The notes under the pieces were generated by a model, which was not told where the DNA came from, searched no databases, and saw nothing but the letters and a program-made list of their open reading frames with translations. 24,661 bases of DNA from a virus, in IMG/VR virus record IMGVR_UViG_3300008113_001032, positions 1-24,661 of that record, one strand, 5' to 3'. Shown piece by piece: positions 6,001 to 24,661 of this stretch. The stretch's first letter is position 1, and each line of letters starts with the position of its first letter. Both the position numbers and the translations under genes were made by a program.

Positions 6001-7419
6001 AATGAAGAACCATATGATTTTACTGCCGTTGGTATTGGTAGCAATGCAATTGTAGCAGTTGGACATAATGCAACTGCAGTAAGATCTTATATTGGAACTC
6101 AAGGATCATGGTTTGATTCTCCAGTGTTTTATACAAGAACTTTTAGTAGTTTAAATTTCACATATACATTGATTCCATCGTTCACTAGACAATTAAATGG
6201 AATTGCATATGGAAATGATGCATTTGTTGCAGTTGGTACTGGTGGAACTGCAATTGTTAGCAATTATGGTTCTGCTGGAATTGGAACTGCTTGGATTGTT
6301 AGAAGCACTCCTATAACTAGTGCTTTAAATGGAATTACTTTTGGATTGGGAGGATTTATTGCCGTAGGTAACAGTGGTAGAATTCTTTCTAGTGCTGACG
6401 GATATGTTTGGAATGAAGTTCCTGATTCAGCAATTACAACCACTGAAAATCTATATGATGTTTCTTTTGAAAATGATAAGTTTATTGCTGTGGGTGAAAA
6501 TGGAACTTTAATATATTCAACTGATGGTAGTCTTTGGACACAAGCTACTACTAATGTAACAACAGACTTATACTCTGTTGTATATACGGATGGTGTGTAC
6601 GTTGTTACTGGTGCTAATGCTTTAGTATTAAATTCGATTGATGGTATTAATTGGAATATAAGACCTTCAGTAATTACAACCACAATTAATAAAGTAATTT
6701 CATATCCTGATGGTGTTATTGGTGTTGGATCTACAGCACAATTTGGTTATTCATCACCAGAAATTTCTAGATGTCAAGCAACTGCAACTGTTTCTGCTGC
6801 TGGAACAATATCTGCAATATCAATTACAGATGGTGGTTTTGGCTATAATCCATCAGCATTAACGCAAGTTCTAATATCTCCACCATTTGCAAAATATGAA
6901 AACTTCGCTAATGTTGATTCGGTGGGTGATTTCGGCATAATTGTTGGTGTTGGAACTAGTGCAACAGGAGTAAGTACGTCTTCTCCGATGATTAAATTTA
7001 ATTTTGATTCTGATTCTAGCTTAAATGTCACTAAATATTCATTTATTGCAAGAAGTGGAATCACAACTGGTGACTACTTTGTAATTAAAAATTCTTGTGT
7101 TGGTAGAGGAACTACAAGTCTGTACCAAGGTAAAACCATTGGAATAGGTTCAACCTTTATTGACAATGTTTATCGTGCAGATCAAGTTATTAATGATGGC
7201 ATCGCAGGGATTGTAACTGTGTATTCTAATGTTCAATCAGTATCTGGAATTGGTTCAACATCATTTACTGGAATTGCTGAATATTCTTGGGGCAAACTTT
7301 ACAACTTCAATACTAGAACATCTCCTGAAGAATTTAAACTTTCCAATACTGGATTGACAGGAGTTTCAACAGCGCCTGTTGTAACACGCATCAATGCTCT
7401 TAAGGAAGAGTTTTCATAA
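1..7419 (+). CDS. Giant modular virion structural protein, 5'-truncated (position of T4 gene 7)
   Basis: The frame is open from the first base, so the start lies outside the window; 2472 codons are visible and the first in-window GTG or ATG should not be taken as the start. The protein is almost entirely beta-type, Gly/Ser/Thr-rich repeat material. Visible modules are: H-x-x-x-x-G-(D/E/Q) repeats such as PGHGYSNGQKLKY (nt 835-873) and PGHDFNTGEELIY (nt 3550-3588); Gly-x-Gly-Tyr repeats near nt 2020, 4621-4920, 5785 and 6835; two DDIS-x-x-F-(D/N)-G modules (nt 4273 and 5050) each followed by a QQPxxDY strand; and seven blade-like repeats (nt 5899-6760) with FVAVG and S-x-DG-x-W signatures, as in BNR/Ycf48-type propellers. 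It sits immediately before gp8, where T4 has baseplate wedge gp7 (about 1030 aa), but I see no direct gp7 similarity. A baseplate or tail-fibre role is inferred from position and composition. The stop is followed by a 30-nt gap with a late-promoter-like box. Confidence 0.8.
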   Translation: MTGKPITLVSYSTTSFSGVEFVYSNEKVTGITSVPHKFSDGDLVRISGINTYSFKSFEGVYRVGVSSITTNLEVGIGSTPATGMVTEISLLEKSYNSRIKVNDIIGINSERFLVLDKNRTNGNYKVLRQYDSTLGLAHTTNSAVSLDQRYFTYTLTGFTTNAPLIENKIQYFDPQTSVGSGTTIKRTFVGYGVSAIFVGVQTGQGSYTRINFAFNPFKVGDYIQSTIGTGVTITQAAVVSASTTSILVDYNSTSVVGVATTGVVLLRKLYNINARNIFIPGHGYSNGQKLKYSYVAGAALTCSANSSLTPTFTLQNNQIVYAVKIDDDNIGIVTTQAGIGSTSTRLYFTGIATQIGSTHAFTEIKNNINGSVSRSRAQVNTSENHGLQIGDEVTLDLVANSSQNVTLKYNDYNAKLIANPVSFGSTQVGVGSTVSTLNLINHTLSTGDKVLYESSIPITNLENQREYFVIKIDDNNIKLADSYYNSTRLNYVNVSFGSSGSGTHTLSPINPKLEVTRNSTIGFAVSDSSMQNLKLEFYDNEDFTNQNFEENVTRIGSPGDGNVTTKVNLVINDHIPNVIYYKATPVGIASITNNALGLSVDTDNYNSGKIIVKDSVYKGNHNVVSIGNSVFYFNLNSQPESSLYTSSGVTTASYVTSSTSASGGIFNVKVNYPGVGYKSVPGIATVVTESGSGSILRAYSDTIGKIKSVSLSLPGYNYPTDRTISAKADTPIVLRIKNNNRVSQVRVVRGGNNYTTPPQLKVIGSNTLLLNANITGNSVTSVDILNNVSGLSEVGPTVIPTFNSNGVRVINGYSSGTDVTLSLKAPTNGFTIFPFEVGDEVFVEGIVGLGSTGSVGDGYNSSDYGYRNFVITQRVTTVGSETITYSIAGIGTTAGTFDVTNSVGKVIKATDLASFAVDVEQTDFFSEEKLIIGNTATNVLNNGWDSTRKILKVSGKGISPEVGNIVTGSLSGSIGEIEEVITNDSNYSTSSSITLNAESTWLSESGILNNSLQKIQDSDYYQNFSYSIRSTIPKSTWEEPVNSLVHSVGFKNFSDLVLNSKSDQNLKVSIGSSIISTIVAIDNVVSMYTKYNFDFVNEETTNQGISKFVNFENARLTDYSICQTNKVLKIDDISSQFTGIGSFGTTVGVTSFTITNQGNSLLKKTFNPTNLSVVSAGSSQIFIPGHDFNTGEELIYDPGAGGSYIGIATTSRTISGVSTSRLPRTVFAYKVNNNIIKLSGIKTDATTNNIFFQFTSPTGIGSTVGAGQTHTLATEYKIANTRALITIDGIIQSPLYRLQVSTGLVDNIGAADTTVKLTGITSIATNTLLQIGSEIVQAQVVGFGSTNVVTVSRGVFGTPKTSHIVGTAVTVFGGDYSINDGTLYFVAPPYGPVGVSTLQPGISTNSSFSGRIFYRNEYKENFIFDDISNNFDGIKKSFTLRSNNQDVTGIITGGNTNYGIVLINNINQQPTIDYTMAQRVSPGIGASITFTGTDIESIPRGGIINEVIAGFGSAYQPLEQAYAFCSVSAGGTIQSVGIATSGSGYRTAPVISIASTAGGSGAVITATVSNGVISGLTITNGGSGYSQASPPFITVGVPTAYSNLELVGGSGYGGKVNVQVGAGGSVTQFQITNRGYGYKPNEVLTITGIPTRVGIATSAFTLRLNSVISNKFSGWSFGLLDRLDDISQYFNGRRKTFSLTKTVVTSNPYSIDAASGSGIDVANNLLIFINDILQQPGRDYVFTGGTQLSFTEAPKSGSKFQILFYKGSDSDVVDVDITETVKVGDYIKLLSNTPYPEQSRRIVEEITKRDQVQTNNYFDVGISTSQEVQRIVNWTKQTSDLVIDGEVISKSRTNYVANIKPTSRIIKNILSSDSEIYVENAFPFFRQLDNYLQEDNKIIIVDEIDVQAATASASVSSASTIGSVSITSAGYGYTTTAVPNVSFASTVPQIREIGKTWNVGIITNTALSYKDIAYKGDIFVAVSDAGYISTSTDLASWSTYNEEPYDFTAVGIGSNAIVAVGHNATAVRSYIGTQGSWFDSPVFYTRTFSSLNFTYTLIPSFTRQLNGIAYGNDAFVAVGTGGTAIVSNYGSAGIGTAWIVRSTPITSALNGITFGLGGFIAVGNSGRILSSADGYVWNEVPDSAITTTENLYDVSFENDKFIAVGENGTLIYSTDGSLWTQATTNVTTDLYSVVYTDGVYVVTGANALVLNSIDGINWNIRPSVITTTINKVISYPDGVIGVGSTAQFGYSSPEISRCQATATVSAAGTISAISITDGGFGYNPSALTQVLISPPFAKYENFANVDSVGDFGIIVGVGTSATGVSTSSPMIKFNFDSDSSLNVTKYSFIARSGITTGDYFVIKNSCVGRGTTSLYQGKTIGIGSTFIDNVYRADQVINDGIAGIVTVYSNVQSVSGIGSTSFTGIAEYSWGKLYNFNTRTSPEEFKLSNTGLTGVSTAPVVTRINALKEEFS

Positions 7420-7422
7420 GAC

Positions 7423-7430
7423 GATAAATA
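7423..7430 (+). promoter_or_regulatory. T4-type late promoter box upstream of gp8
   Basis: GATAAATA matches the NATAAATA form of the T4-like late -10 element (T4 consensus TATAAATA, used by the phage sigma gp55 with the gp45 clamp). It lies in the only gap between the giant gene and gp8, 19 nt before the gp8 ATG, in an A-rich leader without a clear Shine-Dalgarno sequence. Assignment is by motif and position only. Confidence 0.55.
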
Positions 7431-7449
7431 AGTAAAAAACTATAAAAAT

Positions 7450-9081
7450 ATGGCAGCTATCATTACTGATCAATTTAGAATATTGAATGCTGAAACTTTT
7501 GTGCAAAGTTTTACAGGCATTGGTACAACAACCAATGTCTACTATACTTTTATAGGATTACCAAATTCTACTGACATTGTTACTGGTTCTGGAACAACGG
7601 ATTGGAATACAAATGTTCCAAATCCTAAAGATATGTTCAAAGAGCAAAATGATTACTATGACACCATGATTGCTCTTAAACGTGTCAACTCTTCTGACCT
7701 TAGAAGAATGGTTAGAAAGGTTGAATGGAGTGCTGGTACAACTTATGATATGTACAAGCATAATTACAGTTCTTCAAATCCAGCACCTGTAACTAATGCT
7801 ACAAGTTTATATGATTCCAATTACTATGTTGTTAATACAAACTTTAAAGTTTATGTTTGTTTAAACAATGGAATGTCTCCAGATTTTCCATCTGGAAAAC
7901 CTTCTATTGATGAGCCAGATTTTACTGATCTAGAACCAAGGGCTGCTGGTACTAGTGGGGATGGTTATATTTGGAAATATATGTATACCATTTCTCCAAG
8001 TGATGTAATTAAATTTGACTCGATTGATTATATTCCAGTTCCATCTAATTGGGGTTCAGGTGCAACCGCAGAAGTTAAAAATAATGCTGTTGAAGGGGAA
8101 ATTAAAACAGTAATTATCAATAATTCTGGAGCTGGTTATCAGCCTATTGGAACTTCATTTAAAAATGTTCCAATTTTAGGTGATGGTACTGGTGGCAAAG
8201 TTACAGTTACTGTAGATAATTCTGGAAAAGTATCTAATGTTGAAGTCACTAGTGGCGGAACTGGTTATACAAGAGGTAAGATAGAATTTTATCCTGGTGC
8301 CCCTGGATCAGAAATTGGAGGTTCTATTACAGGTTTAAGTGCTGTTGGAACTGGAACAACTTCTGTAGCATCCTTTGAAGTTATTATTCCACCTCAAGGC
8401 GGACATGGATTTGATGTTTACAAAGAATTAGGTGCGTATAGAGTTCTAGTATATTCTAGGTTTGAAACTACGTCTTCAAATCCTGACTTTATCGTTGGTA
8501 ATGACTTTGCTAGAGTTGGATTAATCAAAAATCCAACGGTTTATGGAAGTAAAACACAGCTATTAACTGCATCTGAAGCTAGTGCTGTTGGTGGAATTAA
8601 ATTAAAAAGTTTTACTGGTGGAAGTATTGTAGATACCACATATTCCGTTGATACTACAATTACTCAGACAACTGGAATTGGATCAACTGCTGCTGCCATT
8701 GTAGCATCTTGGGATAATACTACTGGTGTTCTCAAATATTATCAGCCAGTTGGCTTAGGTCTCTCTGCTTATGGTTGGAGAACTACAGAATTTACTGACG
8801 CTATTGGTTATGGTGGAACTTATATTGTAAGTGGTGCTAGTGTTGGTTCCAACTTAGGAATTGATACAAGCTTTGGTAGTGCAGCAAATCCAGGAACCGC
8901 TACAACAGTTGGTTCTGGAACTAATACTAGACTTGCTCCTCTAGGACTTAGATTTATTAATGGTGTGGCTCCACCAGAAGTTGAAAAATACTCTGGAGAA
9001 GTCATCTATATAGATAACAGAGCAGCAATTCCAAGATCTTCTACACAAAAAGAAGATATCAAAATTGTATTAGAATTCTAA
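7450..9081 (+). CDS. gp8: Baseplate wedge subunit gp8
   Basis: 543 aa, forming part of the baseplate wedge in the T4-like contractile tail. The ends match T4 gp8 by eye: near residues 170-200 GDGYIWKYMYTISPSD parallels T4 GDGYVWEYLFEIPPD, and the C-terminus SGEVIYIDNRAAIP followed by an acidic IKIVLEF-like end parallels T4 SGEMIYMENRPPI...INILFTF. The N-terminus ITDQFRILNAETF is typical of cyanophage gp8. It is about 200 residues longer than T4 gp8 (334 aa). The extra length includes two Gly-x-Gly-Tyr beta repeats (SGAGYQPIG at nt 8128 and GGTGYTRGK at nt 8257) and G-I-G-(S/T)-T loops, the same repeat types seen in neighbouring virion proteins. The ATG start leaves the conserved N-terminus intact. 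The next gene begins 4 nt after its stop. Confidence 0.93.
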   Translation: MAAIITDQFRILNAETFVQSFTGIGTTTNVYYTFIGLPNSTDIVTGSGTTDWNTNVPNPKDMFKEQNDYYDTMIALKRVNSSDLRRMVRKVEWSAGTTYDMYKHNYSSSNPAPVTNATSLYDSNYYVVNTNFKVYVCLNNGMSPDFPSGKPSIDEPDFTDLEPRAAGTSGDGYIWKYMYTISPSDVIKFDSIDYIPVPSNWGSGATAEVKNNAVEGEIKTVIINNSGAGYQPIGTSFKNVPILGDGTGGKVTVTVDNSGKVSNVEVTSGGTGYTRGKIEFYPGAPGSEIGGSITGLSAVGTGTTSVASFEVIIPPQGGHGFDVYKELGAYRVLVYSRFETTSSNPDFIVGNDFARVGLIKNPTVYGSKTQLLTASEASAVGGIKLKSFTGGSIVDTTYSVDTTITQTTGIGSTAAAIVASWDNTTGVLKYYQPVGLGLSAYGWRTTEFTDAIGYGGTYIVSGASVGSNLGIDTSFGSAANPGTATTVGSGTNTRLAPLGLRFINGVAPPEVEKYSGEVIYIDNRAAIPRSSTQKEDIKIVLEF

Positions 9082-9085
9082 GAAG

Positions 9086-9661
9086 ATGCCACAAAATACC
9101 AATCTCAACACAGCACCATATTTTGACGATTTTAGTGAAGATAAGAATTTTAAGCGAGTTTTATTTAAACCTGGCACTGCTATACAGTCTAGAGAATTAA
9201 CTACTTTACAGTCAATTCTCCAAAATCAGATTGAGAATTTTGGGCAACACTTCTTCAAAGAAGGTGCCAAAGTAATCCCTGGACAAACATCATACGATAA
9301 TCAGTATGAATATGTCCAGGTAAATTCTTCATATTTCGGTACAGATCTTAGAGATTATATCAGTTTATTAATCGGGAAAACTATTGTTGGTGCAAGTTCT
9401 GGAGTTACTGCAAAAGTAATTAATACACTTACTGATACAAATTCTGATAATAATAATAATACTTTATACATTCGTTATATTAAATCTAACAGTACAGATT
9501 TTACTGGATCTAGATTTGTAGATGGTGAAGAACTTTTAACCGAGGAAACTTTAACTACTAGCACCACTACAATTCAAGCTGGAAATGGTTTTGCAAATTG
9601 CATTGCCGAAAACGGCACAAGGATATTCAAACTATTCTGCCCCAGGCGCAGACAGATTTAA
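9086..9661 (+). CDS. DUF4815 virion structural protein, 5' part of a split gene
   Basis: 191 codons, of which about the first 176 belong to the protein. The N-terminus MPQNTNLNTAPYFDDF, then FKPGTAIQSRELTTLQSILQ and FFKEGAKVIPGQTSYDNQY, is the hallmark of the DUF4815 family of large cyanophage and T4-like structural proteins. The match runs to FANCIAEN (nt 9590-9613). After that the frame reads an unrelated basic tail and stops, while the family sequence resumes in the +1 frame as AQGYSNYSAPGADRFKIS (from nt 9615). In related proteins as I remember them, some 60-70 residues (an EGVYFIRG...LDQYTNTPSYRVG-like segment) lie between these two points. The best reading is therefore an internal deletion of 3n+2 bases, not a simple one-base error. 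As sequenced, this ORF would give a truncated product unless the junction is an assembly error. Confidence 0.85.
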   Translation: MPQNTNLNTAPYFDDFSEDKNFKRVLFKPGTAIQSRELTTLQSILQNQIENFGQHFFKEGAKVIPGQTSYDNQYEYVQVNSSYFGTDLRDYISLLIGKTIVGASSGVTAKVINTLTDTNSDNNNNTLYIRYIKSNSTDFTGSRFVDGEELLTEETLTTSTTTIQAGNGFANCIAENGTRIFKLFCPRRRQI

Positions 9662-12600
9662 AATTTCAACTACATTAGTTAAGAAATCTTTAACAGATTT
9701 TAATGATGAAGATTTCATTGAATTGATGAGGATTGAAAATGGAATTTTGCAATCATTCACAAAGGATAGCGTTGGTAATACTATCAGAGATGAACTTGCA
9801 AGAAGAACATTTGATGAGTCTGGTAACTATATTGTAAATCCTTTTGAAATTTTTGCAAAAGAAAGTTTAAATGATAACGAAGGTAATGGTGGAATTTATA
9901 ATTCAAATCAAGTAACTTCTGAAGGAAATTCACCATCGGAAGCTTTGGCACTTTTACAAGTATCTCCAGGAAAAGCTTATGTAAGGGGATATGAAATTGG
10001 TAAAATATCGAATACTTTTGTAGATATTGAAAAGCCAAGAACATCAAATACGGTAGATACATATTCATTAACTTTTAACTCTACTGGTAAAGTAGTTCTT
10101 AATAATGTAACTGGTTCACCACAAGTTGGTTTCGGAACAACTACTACGCTTCGTCTAAATGATTCTAGAGTTGAATCTAATGGTCTTGTAGCACCAGGAA
10201 ACGAAATTGGTGTTGCTAGAATTTATGATTATAAATCACAAGACTCTAGATATGCAGATGATACTACTAAGTATGATTTGTTCTTATATGATATCCAAAC
10301 TTACACCAAGGTATCAATTTCAACAACTGTTACATTAAATGCTCCTACAGTAATTAAAGGTAATAGTAGTGGTGCTACTGGTTATCTTCAAGCTTCAGTT
10401 TCATCTTCTCCCAATTTAACTTTATATTGCAGCAATGGTAAATTTATTCAAGGGGAGACAATTTCTGTCAATGGTATTAGCTCAGCTCCAACTGTAGTAT
10501 CTGTTCGTGACTATGACTTTAGTGATGTTAAATCAGTTTATTCACAAGTTGGTGTCAATACTTTTACTGCCGATTTAGAATTAAGTTCAACAAAATTAAT
10601 TGCACCACAAGGAACTCAATTTACGATTACTTCTGGTGGTGTTGTTACTGTTGGGATAACGTCTGCAACTTCAGTTGGAATTAAGACTGGCGATATCATC
10701 AGATATACAAAGTCTGGTAACACAGTATCTACTTTTAACAGAGTAATTTCAGTAAGTCCTGCTGCAAATAGCTTTACTGTCACTGGTATTACCAGTGTAA
10801 CAAATATCTGTGATGGTACTCTTCCAGGATCTACTTTAAATGTAAATGATCTTGTAATTATCAATCCAGAAATTATTAATGGTAAAGGATCAACTTTAAT
10901 CACACCATTACCACATAATGATATCAGTAATGTAAATCTGGTTTCATCTGAACTGAAAATTAAGAAGACATATACAATTTCTGTTTCTGGATCTCAGGCA
11001 TCTGTCACTGAATCTGATCCAAATCTATTCTTCTCAGAATTTGATGTAGAAGATTACAATGTATCCTATACTAATGGAACTGTGGAGCCATTAAGAAGTG
11101 GTCAGGTTGTCTTTAGTAATGGAAATAAGACAATTACTTTAACACAATTATCTGTTGCATCAGATTCAAGTGTAAAATTAATTGCATCATTGAATAAGAT
11201 TAATGCAACATCTAAGCAAAAAGTTTTAAATCGTTGTGCCACTATTACTATTTCCAGATCTTCAAATTCAGCATCTGGTATTGGAACAACAAAATTAAAT
11301 GATGGACTAACTTATAGTGCAATCTATGGAACAAGAGTTCAGGATAGTGAAATATCTTTAAACGTTCCTGATGTATTGCGTGTCCATGCAGTTTTTGAAT
11401 CTAATGATACTTCGACTCCAACTCTTCCACAATTAACTCTTGTAGAAATTTCTGGATCATTACTAAATGCAATTCAGGGTGATGTTATTGTAGGTGGTGA
11501 TAGTAAAGCTAGTGCTAGAGTTGTATCAACTACAGCATCATCTGTTAACTTTGTGTATTTGACAGAAAAATCATTTAGCATTGATGAATCTGTATCATTC
11601 AAAAAGTCTGGAATTACTGCAACGATTTCTAATGTAACTGATGGTGATCAAGACATCGTGGAATCATTTACATTAGATGGTGGTCAAAGATTAGAGTTCT
11701 TAGACTATGGTAGAATTATTAGAAAGGATGGTGTAGAATCTCCTAAAAAACAAATTACTATTGTATTTGATCATTATAGCGTACCTGCTGGAGATAGTGG
11801 TGACTTTGTATCATTCTCAAGTTATGATGCAGATTTATACTTGCGTGATATTCCATCTATCAGGCAATTAAGATCAACAGACTGTTTAGACATTAGACCA
11901 AGGGTTGCAAATTACAATCCTGCATCAGATACCTTATCACCATTTGAATTCAAAGCAAGGAATTTTGCATCTTCTGGCACATATTCTAATAATCCAATTT
12001 ATCCAAATAGCCAGTTAGTATTAGGGTATTCTTATTATCTACCTAGAGTTGATAAACTTCTCTTAACCAAAGAAGGTTTCTTTGAATTAAGAAAAGGTGT
12101 TCCATCGGATAATCCAGTTGCTCCTATTGACATTTCATCATCTCTAGAGATTGCTACTATTAGATTGAGACCTTATGTTTATAGTGTAAAGCAAGATATC
12201 AGCGTCACACCAACGCAACATAAGCGTTATACGATGGCTGACATTACAAAGCTTGAAAATAGGCTTGCTAATGTAGAGAAATATACTGCACTGTCTTTAC
12301 TTGAAAGTGACACTGCAAATCTAACTATCAGAGATTCCCAGACTGGTTTAGATAGATTTAAGTCTGGATTCTTTGTCGATAACTTTAAAAATCATGTTAG
12401 CCATATTTTAACAGGTAAATCAAGTATTGATACATTAAAAGGTGAATTAAGACCATCACATTATACAACTGCATTAGATCTTTTAATTGGATCTCAGTCT
12501 TTAGTTGGTATTGGTTCTACATCAAATCAAAATCTTGATACAAGATTTGTAACTGATCTTCAGTCTCCAAATATTAAGAGAACTGGAGCATTAGTAACTC

Positions 12601-15600
12601 TTAACTATACCGAGACTGTAGCCGCTCAGCAAAGATTTGCAACCAGAACTGAAAATGTAAATCCATTTGCAGTTGCAACTTGGATTGGCAATATTGAGCT
12701 TGCACCAGCCTCTGATACTTGGGTTGCTGAAAACAGACTTGCTGTAAGAAACGTTGAAGAAGAGGGTTCATTTACGGCACTGCTTAATACACTAAATGCA
12801 GATCCAAATACAGGTCTTGCTCCTACCGATTGGGGTGCTTGGGAGGAAATTTGGTCTGGTCAAACAGTAGTTGGTAATGAACTTGTAAGATCTGAAACTA
12901 CAACTCAACAAGTTTCTGATAGTGGTTGGAGGACAACTGGTGCTAGAAGAGGCGATTGGCCCTTCTTAGAGCAAGTAAGAAATAGAACTCTTCTCGATAC
13001 TACTACAAACACAAATCTTATTACAACTAGAATTGATTCTACATTATCTAGAAGTGGTGTTCAATTCCAGGTATCACCAAGAATTGATCGTAGATCATTA
13101 GGATCTTCAGTTGTCAGCAGAGACATTATTCCTTTCTTAAGATCAAGAAATATTGAATTTGTTGCTAGAAGAATGAGACCTAGAACCCAGTTCTATGCCT
13201 TCTTCGATAAGGTTGCAATGACCGATTATTGTGTTCCAAAACTATTAGAAATTAGTATGGTTAGTGGAACATTCAGTGTTGGTGAAACTGTTGTTGGTTA
13301 TATTCCAGGAACAACTTTAAGAAACACTGAAAATACTTTAATCAGATTTAGAGTTGCTAAGGCAAATCATAAGTATGGTCCTTATGATTCTCCAACACAG
13401 GTATTTGACCTCAATCCATATGAGGATACTTTGACTTTACCTGACATTTATTCATCAACTGCAACTGTTCTAAATGTTGATACGTTTAGTTTAGGAGCCC
13501 AGGCTGAGAGTGCCTTCTATGGACAGGTTGTACCTGATATGATCCTTGTTGGTCAAACTAGTGGTGCTCAAGCCACTGTGAGAGATCTAAGACTCATTTC
13601 AGATAGAAATGGAACTCTAATTGGATCTCTATTCATTCCTGATCCAGCATCTCCAGATCAGCCTGAATTTGAAACTGGAAGCAAAACCTTACTTCTAACA
13701 GCAAGTCAAAATAATAACCCAATTCCAGGTTCCTTCAATAGCCAAGCTGAAGTGACGTTTACTTCTTCTGGTGAATTAAATATAACACAAGAAACTGTAA
13801 TTTCAACAAGAAATGCAGATGTTCAAAGAACACAAGTAAGTGATACTACAACTGTATCACAGAATGTTTCTACTTTAACTAGAACAACAACTGCCGAAAC
13901 TAGAACTGTAACAAATCAGCAATGGTATGATCCTATTGCAGAAACTTTCTTGGTGACAGATGACGGTGGTATTTTCTTAACATCATTAGATGTATTCTTT
14001 GCAACTAAAGACCAAAATATTCCAATTACTTGCCAAATTAGAACGACTCAAGTTGGCACACCAACTTCAACTATTATTGCGTTCAGCCAAGTAACTCTTG
14101 AGGCAGATCAAGTTCAAACTTCAACTGATGGTAGTATTCCAACCAAGTTTACATTCCCATCTCCAGTTTATCTTGAAGGTAATGGAACGGAATATGCTAT
14201 CGTTCTTCTTTCAGATTCTAATAATTATACGGCATGGATTTCTAGAATGGGTGAGGCTGAGATCAGTACAGCAAACTTAACTGAAAATCAAAGAGTTATT
14301 GTTTCACAACAACCTTATCTTGGATCATTATTTAAATCTCAAAATGGTTCAACATGGGATCCAAGTCAGTTAGAAGATCTTAAATTTGTACTTTATAAAG
14401 CACAATTTACAACTGATCCTGGTGTCTTTAAACTTTACAATCCTAAGTTGGGAATTGGTAATGGTCAAGAACCAAGATTGAGACCAAATCCAGTTAAAAC
14501 TCTTTCTAAAGAAGTTATTGTTGGTCTCGGTTCAACTGTTGCTAGCACTTATCTATCTCCAGGTGTTACGATTACACAAATCAATAACACTAATACAACT
14601 GGTAAACTTTCTAGCATTAGTGGTGCTATTGCAATCAATAATACACAAGCACTTCAGGTTAATAATGTTGGAAGTGGTTTAACTCCTTCTTCTGGAAACT
14701 TTACATTTACTGGCGTAAATCTAACATCTATTAGTGGTGTTGGAACTGGTGCTCAAATGCAAATCACTGTCAGCAATGGAAATATTGGTGTTATTACCGT
14801 TACTTCTGGTGGCAATGGCTATGCAGTTGGTGATGTTCTTACTGCACAAGTTGGATCTTTAAGTGAAAATGTAAGATTTAATGTTGGTATTGTTTCTTCT
14901 TTAAATCAATTAGTAATTACTGATGTACAAGGAAGTTTCGATACTACCAATCAACTTGCTTGGATTGTTGGAAGTGGCCCTAACGTAGGTATTGCTTCTA
15001 CTTTACCTTCAACACCAGTAACTGTAACCAATAACCCTGATAGAACTGGCTTATACATGCAAGTTTCTCATAGAAACCATGGAATGCATGGAAGAAATAA
15101 TAAAGTTAGAATTTCTAATGTTGTTTCTAATGTTGGTGCTGTTAGATTATCTTCACAATATGTAAATACCGCGACCACAGATTTACCAGTTTCTGCTGTT
15201 GGTATCTTTACTAGTTTTGAAAATGTTGGTGTTTCTAGTACCAATCCTGGTTATATTATGATTAATAATGAAATTATCAAGTATACAGGAACTAATGCCA
15301 CCACAAGTCCACAAGTTCTCACAGGAATTTCTAGAGGAATTGACAACACTGTGGCTCAAACACATAGTACCAATTCTGCTATTATGAAGTATGAACTAAA
15401 TGGTGTATCTTTAAGAAGAATTAATACTACACACAACTTTGCTGATGTTGACGTTTCTAATAATATTGATCTTGATTCATACTATGTTAAGATTAATACA
15501 ACTGCAACTGGTCTTGGAACAGCAAGAGATGGATCAAATGGTCTCCCAATTTTAGCTTTTGAAAGCACAAGTCAAGGCGGAGGAAGAGGCGTAAGAGCTA

Positions 15601-16361
15601 CTCAAAACATTCAATTTGAGACTATTACTCCTAATGTTCAGATTATGCTTCCAACTACGACACAAATTGCATCAAGAGTAAGAACAGTTTCTGGAACTAG
15701 TGTTGATGGAACTGAAGTTTCATTCCAAGATAAAGGTTATGAACCAATTAACTTGAATGAAATAAATCAACTATCATCTCCAAGAATTATTTGTGCAGAA
15801 ATTAATGAATTGCAATACTTATCAGCTCTTCCAGGTAATAAGTCATTTACAATGGAAATGACTCTATCAACACAAAATAGAAATGTATCACCTGTTATTG
15901 ATTTAGATAGAATTAACATTATTACCACAACAAACAGGATTAATAATGTAGTCACCGATTTTGTTAACGATGGTAGAGTTAATTCAGATTTAACTGATCC
16001 AACTGCTGCGGCTTATGTAACTAAGCGTGTCGATCTTGAAAATCCTGCAACTGCACTTGATGTTAGATTTTCTGCTTTCCGTGATCAGAGTAATGATATT
16101 AGAGTCCTATATAAACTATACAGAGCAGATACTCCAGATGGAGATCAACCATATATCCTATTCCCAGGATATAATGATCTTCTAGATGGAAACCCTGATA
16201 CAAGAGTTCCATCTAGCAACAATAATGAATATCTAGACTATAAGTTTAGTGCGAATGATCTACCCGAATTTACTGGGTTTAGTATCAAAGTTGTATTTAC
16301 TGGAACAAATCAAGCAATAGTACCTAAGATTAAAGAGTTTAGAGCAATAGCATTAGCATAA
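9585..16361 (+). CDS. DUF4815 virion structural protein, 3' part of a split gene
   Basis: 2258 codons from the first ATG in this frame, but residues 1-10 (MVLQIALPKT) are a frame shadow of the upstream part; family-like sequence starts at nt 9615. With the 5' part the protein has about 2420 visible residues, and about 2490 if the missing segment is restored. Visible landmarks are: APGADRFKIS and DEDFIELMRIENG at the front; a conserved alpha-helical stretch TMADITKLENRLANVEKYTA (nt 12232-12291); a QQWYDPIAETFLV segment (nt 13918) followed by a jelly-roll-like LEGNGTEYAIVLL strand; a Gly-Asn-Gly-Tyr repeat (nt 14809); an RG-x-x-x-T-x-x-x-H module (nt 15330); and a C-terminal LYRADTPDG...DYKFSANDLPEFTGF block. 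It occupies the place of T4 genes 9-12 between gp8 and gp13. A baseplate or fibre role is inferred from position and family. Confidence 0.85.
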   Translation: MVLQIALPKTAQGYSNYSAPGADRFKISTTLVKKSLTDFNDEDFIELMRIENGILQSFTKDSVGNTIRDELARRTFDESGNYIVNPFEIFAKESLNDNEGNGGIYNSNQVTSEGNSPSEALALLQVSPGKAYVRGYEIGKISNTFVDIEKPRTSNTVDTYSLTFNSTGKVVLNNVTGSPQVGFGTTTTLRLNDSRVESNGLVAPGNEIGVARIYDYKSQDSRYADDTTKYDLFLYDIQTYTKVSISTTVTLNAPTVIKGNSSGATGYLQASVSSSPNLTLYCSNGKFIQGETISVNGISSAPTVVSVRDYDFSDVKSVYSQVGVNTFTADLELSSTKLIAPQGTQFTITSGGVVTVGITSATSVGIKTGDIIRYTKSGNTVSTFNRVISVSPAANSFTVTGITSVTNICDGTLPGSTLNVNDLVIINPEIINGKGSTLITPLPHNDISNVNLVSSELKIKKTYTISVSGSQASVTESDPNLFFSEFDVEDYNVSYTNGTVEPLRSGQVVFSNGNKTITLTQLSVASDSSVKLIASLNKINATSKQKVLNRCATITISRSSNSASGIGTTKLNDGLTYSAIYGTRVQDSEISLNVPDVLRVHAVFESNDTSTPTLPQLTLVEISGSLLNAIQGDVIVGGDSKASARVVSTTASSVNFVYLTEKSFSIDESVSFKKSGITATISNVTDGDQDIVESFTLDGGQRLEFLDYGRIIRKDGVESPKKQITIVFDHYSVPAGDSGDFVSFSSYDADLYLRDIPSIRQLRSTDCLDIRPRVANYNPASDTLSPFEFKARNFASSGTYSNNPIYPNSQLVLGYSYYLPRVDKLLLTKEGFFELRKGVPSDNPVAPIDISSSLEIATIRLRPYVYSVKQDISVTPTQHKRYTMADITKLENRLANVEKYTALSLLESDTANLTIRDSQTGLDRFKSGFFVDNFKNHVSHILTGKSSIDTLKGELRPSHYTTALDLLIGSQSLVGIGSTSNQNLDTRFVTDLQSPNIKRTGALVTLNYTETVAAQQRFATRTENVNPFAVATWIGNIELAPASDTWVAENRLAVRNVEEEGSFTALLNTLNADPNTGLAPTDWGAWEEIWSGQTVVGNELVRSETTTQQVSDSGWRTTGARRGDWPFLEQVRNRTLLDTTTNTNLITTRIDSTLSRSGVQFQVSPRIDRRSLGSSVVSRDIIPFLRSRNIEFVARRMRPRTQFYAFFDKVAMTDYCVPKLLEISMVSGTFSVGETVVGYIPGTTLRNTENTLIRFRVAKANHKYGPYDSPTQVFDLNPYEDTLTLPDIYSSTATVLNVDTFSLGAQAESAFYGQVVPDMILVGQTSGAQATVRDLRLISDRNGTLIGSLFIPDPASPDQPEFETGSKTLLLTASQNNNPIPGSFNSQAEVTFTSSGELNITQETVISTRNADVQRTQVSDTTTVSQNVSTLTRTTTAETRTVTNQQWYDPIAETFLVTDDGGIFLTSLDVFFATKDQNIPITCQIRTTQVGTPTSTIIAFSQVTLEADQVQTSTDGSIPTKFTFPSPVYLEGNGTEYAIVLLSDSNNYTAWISRMGEAEISTANLTENQRVIVSQQPYLGSLFKSQNGSTWDPSQLEDLKFVLYKAQFTTDPGVFKLYNPKLGIGNGQEPRLRPNPVKTLSKEVIVGLGSTVASTYLSPGVTITQINNTNTTGKLSSISGAIAINNTQALQVNNVGSGLTPSSGNFTFTGVNLTSISGVGTGAQMQITVSNGNIGVITVTSGGNGYAVGDVLTAQVGSLSENVRFNVGIVSSLNQLVITDVQGSFDTTNQLAWIVGSGPNVGIASTLPSTPVTVTNNPDRTGLYMQVSHRNHGMHGRNNKVRISNVVSNVGAVRLSSQYVNTATTDLPVSAVGIFTSFENVGVSSTNPGYIMINNEIIKYTGTNATTSPQVLTGISRGIDNTVAQTHSTNSAIMKYELNGVSLRRINTTHNFADVDVSNNIDLDSYYVKINTTATGLGTARDGSNGLPILAFESTSQGGGRGVRATQNIQFETITPNVQIMLPTTTQIASRVRTVSGTSVDGTEVSFQDKGYEPINLNEINQLSSPRIICAEINELQYLSALPGNKSFTMEMTLSTQNRNVSPVIDLDRINIITTTNRINNVVTDFVNDGRVNSDLTDPTAAAYVTKRVDLENPATALDVRFSAFRDQSNDIRVLYKLYRADTPDGDQPYILFPGYNDLLDGNPDTRVPSSNNNEYLDYKFSANDLPEFTGFSIKVVFTGTNQAIVPKIKEFRAIALA
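9605..9620 (+). other. Probable deletion junction with frameshift inside the DUF4815 gene
   Basis: The sequence GCCGAAAACGGCACAA joins the end of one family segment (…ANCIAEN, frame of nt 9086) to the start of another (AQGYSNYSAPG, frame of nt 9615). The two frames overlap openly from 9585 to 9661, so the exact breakpoint can only be placed within roughly nt 9609-9617. The shared AACG/GCACA-like bases suggest microhomology, but the parental sequences are not in this window. Confidence 0.65.
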
Positions 16362-19326: not shown

Positions 19327-20736
19327 ATGGCATTAAATCCATACTTCCTTCAAGGAAACTATTCCGAGCAAAGACTTCTGCAAGATCTCATCAATGAGCA
19401 GTTGAAGATGTATGGCGTTCAGATTGGATATCTTCCTAGAAGTTATGCAATTAATGATGGCGTATTAAGAGAAAATATTCTCGCACGATTTAATGATAAT
19501 TACTATATCGAAGCTTATATTTCTTCATATGGTGGTTTTGGTGGTGGTGGAGATTTATTAACTAAATTCGGTGTTCAAGGTAATGATGATTTATCATTAA
19601 TTATTTCTAGAGAAAAATTTGAAGATTTTATTACTCCATTTATTGAAGCTGAATTGGATGATGAAAATTTGAAAATTAGTAATAGACCCAAAGAAGGAGA
19701 CTTGATATATTTTCCATTAACTGACACTTTATTTGAAATTAAGTTTGTAGAACATGAAGTTGAGTTCTATCAATTAAACAAATTATATGTTTATGAATTG
19801 AGATGTGAACCATTCATGTTTGAGGATGAAGTTATTGATACTGGTGCATATGAAATTGATACTAGTGTTGCTGAACGTGGTGTTGATGCTGTATTAACTT
19901 TAGTTGGAACTGCAAATACTGCTGGAGCTGGAACAACAGTTATACCATTTGGTGCTGTACAACAAGTACATTTAGTGAATGATGGTTGGGGATATACAAG
20001 CGCACCTACAGTTACGTTCTCTGCAGCACCTTCTGGAGGTGTAACTGCTACTGCTGTTGCAATCACAACTAGCAAATCAATAGTTGGTTATACATCAAGT
20101 CTATCTATTGATAGGATTGTACTTACAAATCCTGGTGGTGGATACACAATGGCACCAACAATTACTATCAGTGGTGGTGGAGGATCTGGTGGTATAGCTA
20201 CTGCTTCTCTTGGAAATGGAACAATCTCAAGAATTCAGATTAATAATGCTGGAGCAAATTATTCAAGAACGCCAACGATTACAATTGCTCCTCCTACTGG
20301 AGCTGGAACTACTGCTACTGCAGAAGTCTTTATCACAAATGGAAGTGTATCTAGAATTTATGTAACAAATGCTGGTTCTGGATATACATCAACACCATCA
20401 ATAACACTATCACATCCTGGTGTTGGAACTGGCAATTATCTGTATAACGAAGTAATTACTGGAGAAACATCAGGAACAAAGGCAATCGTAAAGGATTGGA
20501 ATGCTTCTGCAAAAGAATTGAAAGTATACAGATTATCAGGTCTATTTACTCCTGGTGAAGTCATTGTTGGATCAGCAGGAACCTATCATACTGGAATTGG
20601 CTCCACTGGAAGATATATATTTAAATCGGCGGATTATTTTGTAGATCCAGATTTATACGCTGAGAATGATGAAATAGAAGCAGAAGCTGATACCTTCTTA
20701 GATTTTTCTGAGACAAATCCATTTGGAGAATACTGA
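19327..20736 (+). CDS. gp14: Neck protein gp14 with inserted Gly-x-Gly-Tyr repeats
   Basis: 469 aa, against 256 aa for T4 gp14. The N-terminal part matches T4: a [20 protein letters not shown] segment, the aromatic [19 protein letters not shown] stretch, and [20 protein letters not shown], parallel to T4 [20 protein letters not shown]. The conserved acidic end ([18 protein letters not shown] ... NPFGEY) follows. Between them, roughly residues 190-375, sit four copies of a G-x-G/N-Y-(T/S)-x-x-P-T-(V/I) beta repeat (nt 19984, 20134, 20248, 20371) that T4 lacks. It works with gp13 in closing the head and joining the tail. Its stop overlaps the gp15 start (TGATG). Confidence 0.92.
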   Translation: [469 protein letters not shown]

Positions 20737-21590
20737 TGTTAGGAAATTATTTTTATCACGGAATTATTAGAAAAACCATTATAGGTTTTGGTACTCTGTT
20801 CAATAATATTGAAATCCGAAAAGTTGACACTGATGGTAGTATAGCGTCTGTAATGAAAGTTCCCATTGCGTATGGGCCTATCCAAAAGTTTTTGGCAAGA
20901 ATAAATCAACAGCCAGATTTGAATAAAAAACAAACAATTACCCTTCCAAGAATATCATTTGAAATGAGAGGCATTTCTTATGACCCATCTAGGAAAGGTT
21001 CAGTAACGCAAACATTTAAATCTGTAACTAGTGACGCTAAATTGCAAAAGGTATTTTTACCAGTACCATATAATATCAATTTTCAATTAGCAATTATGTC
21101 TAAAACGCAAGAAGACATGTTGCAAATTATAGAGCAAATATTACCATTTTTCCAACCAGCTTTTAACATATCGATAGATCTGGTTGAAACTATTGGGGAA
21201 AAAAGAGATATTCCTATCGTATTAGAATCTGTAAATCCACCAGATGACAAATATGAAGGTGGATACGATGAAACAAGAACCATTATATATACATTGAATT
21301 TTGTGGCAAAAACATCTCTGTTCGGATTGATAGCCGATTCAACAGATAAACTAATTAAAAAAGTTCAAGTTGATTACTACGGCAACACAACAACAACTGC
21401 TAAGCGTGAAGTACGTTACACTGCAACACCAAAAGCATTACAAGATTACAATGATGACGGTGTAATAAATGCTGCTGATGACGTATTAGTAGAGCCTGGT
21501 GATGATTTTGGTTTTAATGAAACTTCTTCATTCTACCAAGATTTCAAAACTTATAGTCCATCCCAACAACAAGATGTAGATCTAACATGA
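20736..21590 (+). CDS. gp15: Proximal tail sheath stabiliser gp15
   Basis: 284 aa. T4 gp15 caps the finished tail tube and sheath and connects the tail to the head. Matching blocks are the N-terminal YFYHGIIRKTIIGFGTLFNNI, VPIAYGPIQKFLARI, and the diagnostic LQIIEQILPFFQPAFNISI (T4 FQIVEQILPYFQPHFNTTM), followed by KRDIPIVLESV. After the conserved core comes a C-terminal tail of about 60 residues with a loop DYNDDGVINAAD (residues 237-248) that fits the 12-residue EF-hand/dockerin calcium pattern D-x-N-x-D-G-x-I-x-x-x-D. The tail then reads EPGDDFGFNE. The start shares a base with the gp14 stop; the stop overlaps the gp16 ATG. Confidence 0.92.
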   Translation: MLGNYFYHGIIRKTIIGFGTLFNNIEIRKVDTDGSIASVMKVPIAYGPIQKFLARINQQPDLNKKQTITLPRISFEMRGISYDPSRKGSVTQTFKSVTSDAKLQKVFLPVPYNINFQLAIMSKTQEDMLQIIEQILPFFQPAFNISIDLVETIGEKRDIPIVLESVNPPDDKYEGGYDETRTIIYTLNFVAKTSLFGLIADSTDKLIKKVQVDYYGNTTTTAKREVRYTATPKALQDYNDDGVINAADDVLVEPGDDFGFNETSSFYQDFKTYSPSQQQDVDLT

Positions 21591-22003
21591 ATACTTTCGA
21601 CAAAATTAGTGACGTTTTGAACGTAGAATCTGAAGTAGAATCTTCTGAAATAGTTGCTTCTGAAAAACCAAAACTTGTTAAAGTTGAAGAACCTCAAAAG
21701 GACTATGAGTATACCAGGGGTCAACTTTATGCTTTGATCGAGAAAGGTCAAGAAGCTGTGGATGGAATACTGGAAGTTGCAACTAGTTCCGATCATCCTA
21801 GAGCTTACGAGGTTGCTGGGCAATTAATTAAAAACGTTGCTGATGTTGCCGATAAATTAATGGATCTTCAAAAGAAAATGAAGGATCTTGATGAAAAACA
21901 TGCAAGACCAACAACTGTAAATAATTCATTGTTTGTTGGTTCCACAGCAGAACTTTCTAAATTAATTAAGCAAGGTATTCTAAATAATAATACGCAAGAT
22001 TAA
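21587..22003 (+). CDS. gp16: Terminase small subunit gp16
   Basis: 138 aa, close to the usual size of cyanophage gp16. It has a variable acidic N-terminus, then a DYEYTRGQLYALIEKGQEAV block, the helical core HPRAYEVAGQLIKNVADVAD followed by LMDLQKKMKDL, and the conserved tail NNSLFVGSTAELSKLIKQG. gp16 recognises phage DNA and regulates the large terminase gp17, whose gene is expected downstream of this window. The ATG overlaps the gp15 stop (ATGA). T4 keeps the same 13-14-15-16 order. Confidence 0.92.
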   Translation: MNTFDKISDVLNVESEVESSEIVASEKPKLVKVEEPQKDYEYTRGQLYALIEKGQEAVDGILEVATSSDHPRAYEVAGQLIKNVADVADKLMDLQKKMKDLDEKHARPTTVNNSLFVGSTAELSKLIKQGILNNNTQD

Positions 22004-22008
22004 ATTTT

Positions 22009-22086
22009 ATGAGAGACGGAAAATCCGCCAAAGATAAAAACTACTCCCTCCGTGATTGGTTTAAAGGTGGTGGATGGGGATCATGA
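22009..22086 (+). pseudogene. Truncated N-terminus of a DWFKGGGW-type phage protein
   Basis: 25 codons starting MRDGKSAKDKNYSLRDWF, followed by KGGGWGS and a stop. This N-terminus is very characteristic of a cyanophage/pelagiphage protein that normally continues for 50 or more residues with a GGKYDGKPCAKQPG-like, Cys-containing, basic tail (recalled, not searched). Here the match stops at about nt 22077 and the sequence changes to …DHEYSMARSEL in another frame. I read it as the remnant of a gene fused to its neighbour by a deletion. The ATG is 5 nt after the gp16 stop. Confidence 0.65.
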
Positions 22087-22093
22087 ATATTCA

Positions 22094-23197
22094 ATGGCTC
22101 GTTCTGAATTGAAAACAATTCACAATGCTGCAAAGCGTCTTGAGAAAAAAATGGGTAAAAAGGGTGAAGGTAATTTAGAAGCTTGGGTTCAATCTAAAAT
22201 TACTAAGGCAGCAGATTATATTGATACTGCCGCCGATTATGTTGCAAATGAACAAAGATCATATAGAGTTGGTGAACAAATTCCAGCATCTGCAACTAAG
22301 CCAAAACCAAAACCCACTGGTGCTTCAAGATTTAAGTTTAGTGTTGATAAGACTGGATTACAAGGACCAGACAAACCATTGACTACCGAAGAAAAAGATG
22401 CTTGCTACAAGAAAGTAAAGTCTCGGTATTCTGTATGGCCCTCTGCATACGCATCTGGGGCATTAGTTAAATGTCGTAAAGTTGGTGCTAAAAATTGGGG
22501 CAATAAATCTGAAGAAGTTTCAGCAATTGTAGCTAAAGTTTTAGATGAAAAATGTTGGGATGGTTATAAGCAAGAAGGGATGAAGAAAAAAGGTAAGAAA
22601 ATGGTTCCAAATTGTGTCCCAGTATCAGAGAATGTAAAAAGAATTCAATCGATGGGGAGAGTATATGTAGTTATGGTAAATTTTTATGGAAAATATTATA
22701 CCATAAAATTATATTTTTCTGGATCAGAGCAACCTTCAAGAGAGGAAGTAGCTACTGCAGTAGAAAAAATTTATCCATCTGGAAAAGTTCTTGCATATTA
22801 TCCTGCAATGAATACTGTTGGTTCCGATAATTATATCATTGCCAAAGAAGAAGCTGAGCCTCAACCAGAACCTAAGTATGGTAACACCACTTATGATAGT
22901 GCAGAAAAAAGACGTAGAAACTACTTAATGAATATTGGGGTTATTGGTGAGGGTGCTGCTTGGACTCGTAAGGAGGGACAGAATAAAAAAGGTGGTCTTA
23001 ATGAAAAAGGTCGCAAGTCTTATGAAAGAGAAAATCCTGGTAGTGATTTGAAGGCACCTTCTAAAAAGGTCGGTAACAAAAGACGTGCATCATTCTGTGC
23101 AAGGATGAGAGGTATGAAAGAGAAACTAACATCAAAGAAAACTGCTAATGATCCAAATAGCAGAATCAATAAGTCCCTTAGAGCTTGGAACTGCTGA
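22094..23197 (+). CDS. Basic multi-domain protein with PSAYASG (DUF5872-like) and DUF6321-like regions
   Basis: 367 aa from the ATG at 22094; the frame is open upstream to nt 22013 and a GTG at 22052 is possible, but residues before about nt 22079 are shadows of the truncated gene, so the native start is probably lost. Regions in order: MARSELKTIHNAAKRLEKK and an EAWVQSKITKAADYIDTAADY helix block; KVKSRYSVWPSAYASGALVK plus CRKVGAKNWG (nt 22415-22503), a module also known from large DNA viruses of algae; DEKCWDGYKQEGMKKKGKK; a small GRVYVV...PSREEVATAVEKIYP domain (nt 22652-22846) shared with the next gene; and a C-terminal AWTRKEGQNKKGGLNEKGRK ... DPNSRINKSLRAWNC region (nt 22955-23194). DUF numbers are from memory. 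The strongly basic C-terminus suggests DNA contact, perhaps as a virion-packaged protein. Function unknown. Confidence 0.75.
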   Translation: MARSELKTIHNAAKRLEKKMGKKGEGNLEAWVQSKITKAADYIDTAADYVANEQRSYRVGEQIPASATKPKPKPTGASRFKFSVDKTGLQGPDKPLTTEEKDACYKKVKSRYSVWPSAYASGALVKCRKVGAKNWGNKSEEVSAIVAKVLDEKCWDGYKQEGMKKKGKKMVPNCVPVSENVKRIQSMGRVYVVMVNFYGKYYTIKLYFSGSEQPSREEVATAVEKIYPSGKVLAYYPAMNTVGSDNYIIAKEEAEPQPEPKYGNTTYDSAEKRRRNYLMNIGVIGEGAAWTRKEGQNKKGGLNEKGRKSYERENPGSDLKAPSKKVGNKRRASFCARMRGMKEKLTSKKTANDPNSRINKSLRAWNC

Positions 23198-23198
23198 T

Positions 23199-23519
23199 AT
23201 GAAAAGCTTCAATCAATTTCTTTCAGAAAGTGTCACCATCAACGGTGACTTCAACGGTACTTTAAATATTGGTAGTCATTCAGAATCACAACAAGTTGGT
23301 GAAGATTTTACTGCTGATCTTGTTTGGCAAGGTCAATTATATCGAATGGATTTTACTGCTAAGGATGGAATTCCTTCTAGAGAAAGATTAGCAGAAGAAC
23401 TTCAAGGGCAATATCCAGGAATTATTGTACATCAAATTTATCCAGCAGATTCTGAGTCGGATAATATTAAAGTAAAAGATTCTAAAAGATATCATCCAGC
23501 AAAGTTAGATTGGGTTTAA
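23199..23519 (+). CDS. Candidate capsid-targeted internal head protein
   Basis: 106 aa from the ATG at 23199, which is 1 nt after the upstream stop. I reject the longer in-frame start at 23148 because it overlaps 50 nt of the neighbour and precedes the conserved MKSFNQFLSE. That decapeptide parallels the T4 capsid targeting sequence MKTYQEFIAE of internal proteins, which directs them into the prohead and is removed by protease gp21 after the Glu. A VTINGDFNGTLNIG strand pair follows. Residues 34-95 (GEDFTADLVWQGQLYRM, PSRERLAEELQGQYP, then IYPADSESDNI) align with a domain in the upstream protein. The C-terminus is RYHPAKLDWV. The internal-protein role is inferred; T4 cleavage usually prefers A, G or T where this has Ser. 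Confidence 0.75.
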   Translation: MKSFNQFLSESVTINGDFNGTLNIGSHSESQQVGEDFTADLVWQGQLYRMDFTAKDGIPSRERLAEELQGQYPGIIVHQIYPADSESDNIKVKDSKRYHPAKLDWV

Positions 23520-23522
23520 TTT

Positions 23523-24661
23523 ATGGCACAGTGGAATAAGACTACACAAGACTTTCTGAATCAAGAAAGATCTTTATTTGAGGTTTTTAACATCGCAGAT
23601 CACTGGGGAAACCAGACAGATTGGAGACCTCAGTTTTCTAATAATAACAGGTTAAAAACTGCACCTTTCCAAACAGTTTTCTTTAACACATTTCAGTATG
23701 GTAAAGAGACTGATGTTTGGGATGAGAGAATTGTTGGAGTTGGAACTGCAACTTGGAATCAATATTCCAGTAATGTAATTATGCAAGTTGGTGTTACTAC
23801 TGGAAGTAAAGTTATTAGACAAACCAGAAATGTGATGAGGTACATTCCTGGTAGACCTGCAACACTTGCGTTCGCAATTAGGTTAGAACAACCAAAGGTA
23901 GGTATTCGCAGAAGATTTGGATTGTTTGATGACTATAATGGTGCATACTTTGAGGATGATGGAGGAACTTACTCCTATGTAATTCGCACAAGCACATCTG
24001 GTATTACTACAGAAAGAAGAGTTGGTAGAGATGAATGGAATGGTGAAAAGTTTGATGGCAATGGTTGGACTGGTGTAACCGCAGATCCAACAAAACAACA
24101 AATGATTTCTATCAATTATGAATGGTATGGTGCAGGAACCGTAGATTTTGCTTGGTTGATGAAGGGAGAAACTATCAAGAGTCATACCTTTGATAATTCA
24201 AATGTAAATAATTTTGTTTGGTGTTCTAGTCTATTCCTCCCAATCCGTTGCGAGATTGAGAATGTAACTGGTGTTGCAGGAACTCATTATCTCTATCAAG
24301 GTTCCAATTCTCTCATCCAAGAAGGTAATGCAGACAAACTCGGAACTCTTTTAAGCCAATCCAATGGAATCACTGGGACTACGATGACACTGGCAAATAC
24401 GTTCTATCCGATTGTAAGTTTGCGTCTTAAATCATCTGCTCTCAATTCAGTAATGCTTGTGAGATCTTTGCAGGCAGTAACCAATGATAATACTAATGTG
24501 TATTGGAAAGTTCTTCAGAATGCAACGTTGACTAATCCAGTTTGGACAAATCACGCAGATGTAGATTCATTTATCCAATATGATACCTCTGCAACTGCAC
24601 TTTCTGGGGGTAGAGATATTCTTTCTGGATTTGTAGTTTCTGGTGGATCTAATTTGATTGA
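23523..24661 (+). CDS. Virion-like structural protein, 3'-truncated by the window end
   Basis: The ATG at 23523 is 3 nt after the previous stop and the frame stays open to the last base (379 complete codons). It begins MAQWNKTTQDFLNQERSLFE. It has recognisable blocks RLKTAPFQTVFFNTFQYGKE, QTRNVMRYIPGRPATLAFAI, VGIRRRFGLFDDYNGAYFED, RDEWNGEKFDGNG and MISINYEWYGAGTVDFAW. I recall the same blocks in unnamed virion proteins of cyanophages and other phages, with a beta-sandwich look (alternating strands, W-G-A-G turns). In T4-like phages the large terminase gp17 would be expected soon after. Base usage is slightly less AT-rich than in the giant genes. Function unknown; a structural or particle-attached role is inferred from family memory and position. 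Confidence 0.75.
   Translation, partial: MAQWNKTTQDFLNQERSLFEVFNIADHWGNQTDWRPQFSNNNRLKTAPFQTVFFNTFQYGKETDVWDERIVGVGTATWNQYSSNVIMQVGVTTGSKVIRQTRNVMRYIPGRPATLAFAIRLEQPKVGIRRRFGLFDDYNGAYFEDDGGTYSYVIRTSTSGITTERRVGRDEWNGEKFDGNGWTGVTADPTKQQMISINYEWYGAGTVDFAWLMKGETIKSHTFDNSNVNNFVWCSSLFLPIRCEIENVTGVAGTHYLYQGSNSLIQEGNADKLGTLLSQSNGITGTTMTLANTFYPIVSLRLKSSALNSVMLVRSLQAVTNDNTNVYWKVLQNATLTNPVWTNHADVDSFIQYDTSATALSGGRDILSGFVVSGGSNLI

Follow-up and report, generated by a model that had tools for sequence, protein, structure and literature searches.

The window analysed here is the whole 24,661-base stretch of IMG/VR record IMGVR_UViG_3300008113_001032, a fragment of a T4-like cyanophage, a virus of marine or lake cyanobacteria. 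Its genes encode, in order, baseplate and tail proteins, gp13-like and gp14-like neck proteins, gp15, the terminase small subunit, a DUF6321 protein, the short ORF 23199–23519 that is our subject, and a structural protein. The gene order matches that of the closest complete relative, Synechococcus phage DSL-LC03 (Kyanoviridae), in which the corresponding short protein is 74.5% identical; beyond the equivalent of the window, DSL-LC03 continues with the large terminase, sheath, tube, portal, prohead protease, scaffold and major capsid protein. The features of the locus are as follows.

21587–22003, plus strand: terminase small subunit, gp16-like (phrog_445, E = 3.4e-55)
21980–21986, plus strand: CTAAATA, candidate cyanophage late promoter preceding the DUF6321 gene and ORF 23199–23519
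22052–23197, plus strand: DUF6321 protein upstream of the ORF, listed from GTG 22052 (PF19846, E = 1.6e-22)
22643–22807, plus strand: copy of the body domain of the ORF, residues 198–252 of the DUF6321 protein (hhalign E = 3.9e-5, 28% identity)
23199–23519, plus strand: 106-aa ORF of family phrog_1742 (E = 2.6e-35)
23199–23228, plus strand: capsid-targeting-like tag MKSFNQFLSE, predicted gp21 cut after E10 (conservation in relatives)
23229–23300, plus strand: low-confidence, probably flexible linker, residues 11–34, including a conserved GDFNG (pLDDT mostly under 50)
23301–23516, plus strand: beta-beta-alpha-beta domain, residues 35–106 (pLDDT block means 71–95)
23523–24661, plus strand: virion structural protein downstream of the ORF, truncated by the contig end (phrog_1645, E = 6.8e-153)

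The counterpart of the DUF6321 protein, SSCSM1_29, was found by mass spectrometry in S-SCSM1 virions, and S-SZBM1_190, a relative of the downstream structural protein, was likewise detected in virions. We regard the CTAAATA at 21980 as a candidate late promoter, a role adopted from cyanophage late promoters in general. The window has fewer MTAAATA sites than chance would give (4 observed, at 7031, 7424, 16590 and 21980, versus 21 expected), and those at 7424, 16590 and 21980 directly precede genes, as late promoters would. Whether the DUF6321 gene starts at GTG 22052 or at the alternative ATG 22094 is uncertain, and there may be a frameshift here; positions 22010–22094 also hold a 25-codon ORF (MRDGKSAKDKNYSLRDWFKGGGWGS) ahead of this gene in another frame. 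Elsewhere, a long gene that is a single CDS in DSL-LC03 (5796–13520) appears in the window as two overlapping frames, 9086–9661 and 9585–16361, a split probably caused by a frameshift or sequencing error. The gp14-like neck protein (19327–20736) has an extra glycine-rich repeat region at about residues 190–390, which matches tail-fibre and baseplate profiles.

ORF 23199–23519 opens with the ATG at 23199, has 106 codons and closes with the stop codon ending at 23519. A longer in-frame ATG at 23148 falls within the upstream gene, and relatives begin at the equivalent of 23199. The N-terminus reads MKSFNQFLSE|SVTINGDF, with 96 residues C-terminal to E10, just as the preliminary description of this DNA had it. 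The phrog_1742 profile matches over its full length (residues 1–100 of 106); members of this family, which has no assigned function, occur in 138 cyanophage records. S-PM2 and Syn9 have no phrog_1742 protein, so their proteomes are no test of its packaging. In the literature searched, all of it outside subscription journals, we found no mention of the tag in phrog_1742 or of such tags in cyanophages.

The first ten residues are similar to the tag of T4 IPII and IPIII (MKTYQEFIAE): both are ten residues long, start with M-K, have an aromatic residue at position 4, F7, an aliphatic residue at position 8 and E10, and are followed by a body. Among 67 distinct phrog_1742 relatives K2, F7 and E10 were invariant, position 4 was F or Y and position 8 was L, I or M. 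Because several of the scans had the tag in the search pattern, we counted again using just the 24 relatives without the query's MKSFNQFL, and the pattern was kept in all of them. In T4, tag mutants (Mullaney and Black, as reported in PMC9026906) assign residues 4 and 7 to targeting and residues 8 and 10 to processing, and the same source gives the gp21 motif as a cut after L/I-x-E. The invariant or restricted positions in phrog_1742 are those important in the T4 mutants (4, 7, 8 and 10); the tag is an N-terminal peptide of about ten residues with the targeting residues at 4 and 7, and L8-S9-E10 agrees with the cleavage motif.

The preliminary description had also called for a gp21-like protease. 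Such a gene (Peptidase_S77/gp21) lies at the syntenic place in DSL-LC03, about 8.6 kb downstream of the phrog_1742 gene, and a gp21-type protease is present in 21 related contigs, but none is found in the 24.7-kb window, a fragment too short to reach it. The DSL-LC03 capsid protein contains GFLSE|ASPTN, which aligns with SFLTE65|A66 of T4 gp23. The tag reads QFLSE|SVTIN, so that its FLSE repeats the residues that precede the cut at the lineage's own maturation site.

The preliminary description further suggested searching the genome for other proteins starting MKxFxxF(L/I)xE. The strict pattern used in the genome and proteome counts, MK.[FYL]..F[LIVMF].E, gave 11 matches in four complete cyanophage genomes versus 0.05 expected when N-terminal residues were shuffled. 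At the DNA level, a pattern for MK[ST]FxxF[LIMF]xE had 15 matches in 8 T4-like records and the reversed pattern none; in T4 itself, the positive control, it picked only ipII, ipIII and gp61.1. In public viral contigs, 112 of the 124 tag matches listed stood close to the beginning of an ORF of 55 aa or more, compared with 10 of 121 in the reversed-order control; for these scans we used the ORF-start fraction, the matches listed being no measure of abundance. The shuffling, the reversed pattern and the ORF-start comparison all speak against chance resemblance, which we reject.

The proteins that carry the tag are otherwise very different. Among the matches listed they belong to at least 14 Pfam families: cytidylyltransferases (15), DUF6267 (9), DUF5661, DUF6321, adenylate kinase, AAA, SAM lyase, HD_4, HicA, SET, GNAT, methyltransferase, HNH and others. 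When 85 of the tagged proteins among these matches were aligned, they had in common only M1, K2, F4, F7 and E10, and these positions were for the most part dictated by the search pattern. Judged from sequence, a single short N-terminus that precedes so many unrelated bodies has the look of a targeting signal.

Several further observations were made on tagged proteins. A second common module, approximately KAxxLGLxSDGHGxWxDxxGxxVAKTxxGxLxF, comes after the tag of several cargo enzymes; its SDGHGxWxD-type carriers include tagged nucleotidyltransferases (contigs L099, L108, L183, L192 and others) and S-CREM2 ORFs 12 and 14. Four tagged ORFs of other viral contigs (L154:3736–4149, L141:10529–11047, L191:12007–12630 and L219:1226–1783) resemble, by eye, ADP-ribosyltransferases or HicA/HD_4 domains, and such proteins could possibly be effectors injected against the bacterial host. 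T4 gp61.1, a hypothetical protein of 54 aa, starts MKTFKEFIKE, and on visual comparison its remainder is like the N-terminal arm of mature T4 gp23 (SGAV..GP), so that gp61.1 may be a head protein of T4 that has escaped recognition. The small cyanophage virion proteins S-CREM2 ORF160 and S-SCSM1_97 contain a capsid-protein-like peptide, GFTG..GPxAGYDPLM.

We compared the tag with published virion proteomes. S-CREM2, with 52 virion proteins of 219 (PMC10665884), has four proteins with the strict pattern, SAM hydrolase ORF6, ORF13, kinase ORF14 and cytidylyltransferase ORF154, and every one of them was detected in the virions (hypergeometric P = 0.003). S-SCSM1 (PMC9602691) has two strict tags, and the tagged NMNAT ORF91 was detected in virions, while the phrog_1742 member, ORF30, was not among the 45 virion proteins. 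In S-SZBM1 (PMC9146016) the single strict tag is that of the phrog_1742 member, which was not among the 30 virion proteins. Over the three phages, 5 of 7 strictly tagged proteins were found in virions (P = 0.0045), small numbers though these are. S-CREM1, with a virion proteome of 14 proteins, was left out, its GenBank record carrying no virion flags in the stretch examined. Looser look-alikes were spotted afterwards and excluded from the counts: Cas9-like ORF12 (LRFASFMAEA) and ORF136 (MQTFSMFFSE), both detected in S-CREM2 virions; an S-CRM01 virion kinase (MISFDQFLSE); and S-SZBM1_192 (MKTFKQYITEA), not detected in S-SZBM1 virions. All four non-lysis enzymes of S-CREM2 virions (SAM hydrolase, Cas9-like nuclease, kinase and cytidylyltransferase) have a capsid-targeting-like tag at or near the start. 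The authors of the cyanophage virion proteomes did not exclude co-purified contaminants.

It follows from these comparisons that reading the first ten residues as a capsid-targeting sequence is well supported. The likeness to T4 pointed out in the preliminary description has held up in the conserved functional positions, the gp21 gene of syntenic genomes, the match to the capsid site, the spread of the tag over unrelated proteins and its association with virion proteomes. It seems very unlikely that the motif instead docks elsewhere, for instance on a membrane, a chaperone or the RNA polymerase of host or phage, and is like that of T4 by convergence. In favour of this, the literature searched yielded no experiment on any cyanophage tag, and some tagged DSL-LC03 proteins lie outside the virion data; the presence of every strictly tagged S-CREM2 protein in virions, the agreement of positions 8–10 with the cleavage site in this lineage's capsid protein and the selection of ipII and ipIII by the same pattern in T4 all speak against it.

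The tag therefore marks virion proteins in general, and phrog_1742 is so far the exception. Trypsin releases just one or two suitably sized peptides from the phrog_1742 protein; the S-SCSM1 and S-SZBM1 samples yielded other proteins of 61–112 aa, so its non-detection has some weight. Of the earlier suggestion of a packaged protein, the targeting reading of the tag stands, but the protein itself went undetected in these two proteomes. A different fate would agree with this absence: the tag would target the core, but the phrog_1742 protein would serve in assembly or as part of the core and be lost by expulsion or degradation as the head matures, leaving little in the virion. The gene does lie in a late structural block next to terminase and virion proteins, and T4 core fragments mostly exit the head according to PMC9026906. 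We nevertheless consider this fate unlikely, since virions do retain other tagged proteins (S-CREM2 ORFs 6, 13, 14 and 154 and the S-SCSM1 NMNAT) and the body is a compact conserved domain, unlike an extended scaffold.

An AlphaFold model of the protein was built from 33 sequences. In it, tag residues 4–9 form a helix, confidence is low over residues 9–31, where the linker is probably flexible, and the confidently modelled domain starts at about residue 35. The calculated pI of the mature body is about 4.8, that is, acidic, versus 9.6 for T4 IPII. The domain copy in the DUF6321 protein of the window matched the phrog_1742 profile at E = 0.024, and the domain is also found within the virion protein SSCSM1_29 (E = 3e-5). 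Searching the PDB by fold, we obtained as top matches YkzG (E = 0.23 and 0.36; probability 0.82 and 0.92) and T7 Gp2 (E = 0.30; probability 0.92), none of them significant, and the viral fold matches include a phage RNA polymerase inhibitor. A sequence search with the family profile against solved structures gave no match, nor did hhalign of the family with T7 Gp2.

T4 Alt is a packaged protein that acts early on host transcription. The injected phrog_1742 body might bind RNA polymerase and so could likewise act early on host transcription, which would add to the packaging reading, not replace it. YkzG, the RNA polymerase epsilon subunit, and T7 Gp2 both bind RNA polymerase, and the inhibitor among the viral matches also counts in favour; however, the lack of a significant fold match, the empty sequence comparisons and the frequency of small beta-beta-alpha-beta folds make this addition the least probable of the readings considered. 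Host RNA polymerase binding is thus a weak lead taken from the model, albeit the best one for the task of the body in the host.

Comparison with known systems places the protein more precisely. T4 internal proteins (IPI–III) have a small basic body, which the window's protein does not. With IPII and IPIII it has in common, besides the features of the tag, that a gp21-type protease is encoded, here in syntenic genomes; it differs in that its body is unrelated in sequence and acidic, it belongs to another virus family (Kyanoviridae), and its cleavage and packaging are predicted here from sequence. As the body is acidic, unlike that of T4 IPII, we class the protein by its capsid-targeting sequence and do not count it among homologs of the T4 internal proteins. 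The NMNAT/cytidylyltransferases of cyanophage virions carry a like tag, strict in S-SCSM1 and S-CREM2 and shortened (MRFRQFIIEA) in S-SZBM1, and are virion-detected; they differ in having an unrelated enzyme body, in many cases with the extra SDGHGxWxD linker module after the tag. Some cyanophage DUF6321 proteins contain the same beta-beta-alpha-beta domain and some are tagged, but they are often larger and multidomain, and the copy in the window has no tag.

Taken together, it is quite probable that a functional T4-type capsid-targeting sequence brings this small beta-beta-alpha-beta protein into the prohead, where it would be cleaved by gp21 and packaged. F4 and F7 of the newly made protein would dock onto the prohead core, and the gp21-type protease would cut after E10 at FLSE|S, as it does the capsid protein at FLSE|A. 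The acidic body of 96 residues, linker and domain, would then be retained in the DNA-filled head and would probably pass into the host along with the DNA. We infer this targeting, cleavage and injection for phrog_1742, and other cyanophage cargo would be loaded by the same tag. More broadly, we lean towards the view that in marine and freshwater T4-like cyanophages a modular, gp21-cleaved tag loads varied, fast-changing host-takeover cargo for delivery with the DNA, and that the tag alone reveals much of this cargo from genomes; the proposed set, held with the same leaning, comprises NMNAT, SAM lyase, protein kinases, a Cas9-like nuclease, adenylate kinase and phrog_1742.

Enzymes recur in cyanophage virion proteomes, and their authors were unable to tell cargo from contamination. 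A short tag makes this distinction testable, as it predicts both the packaged proteins and the new N-terminus of each. A tag-defined set of cyanophage cargo is of more interest than the single ORF 23199–23519, and existing virion mass-spectrometry data can test it. If the proposal is true, phrog_1742 would gain a place in the virion, and the injection strategy of T4 would extend to some of the most abundant viruses of surface waters.
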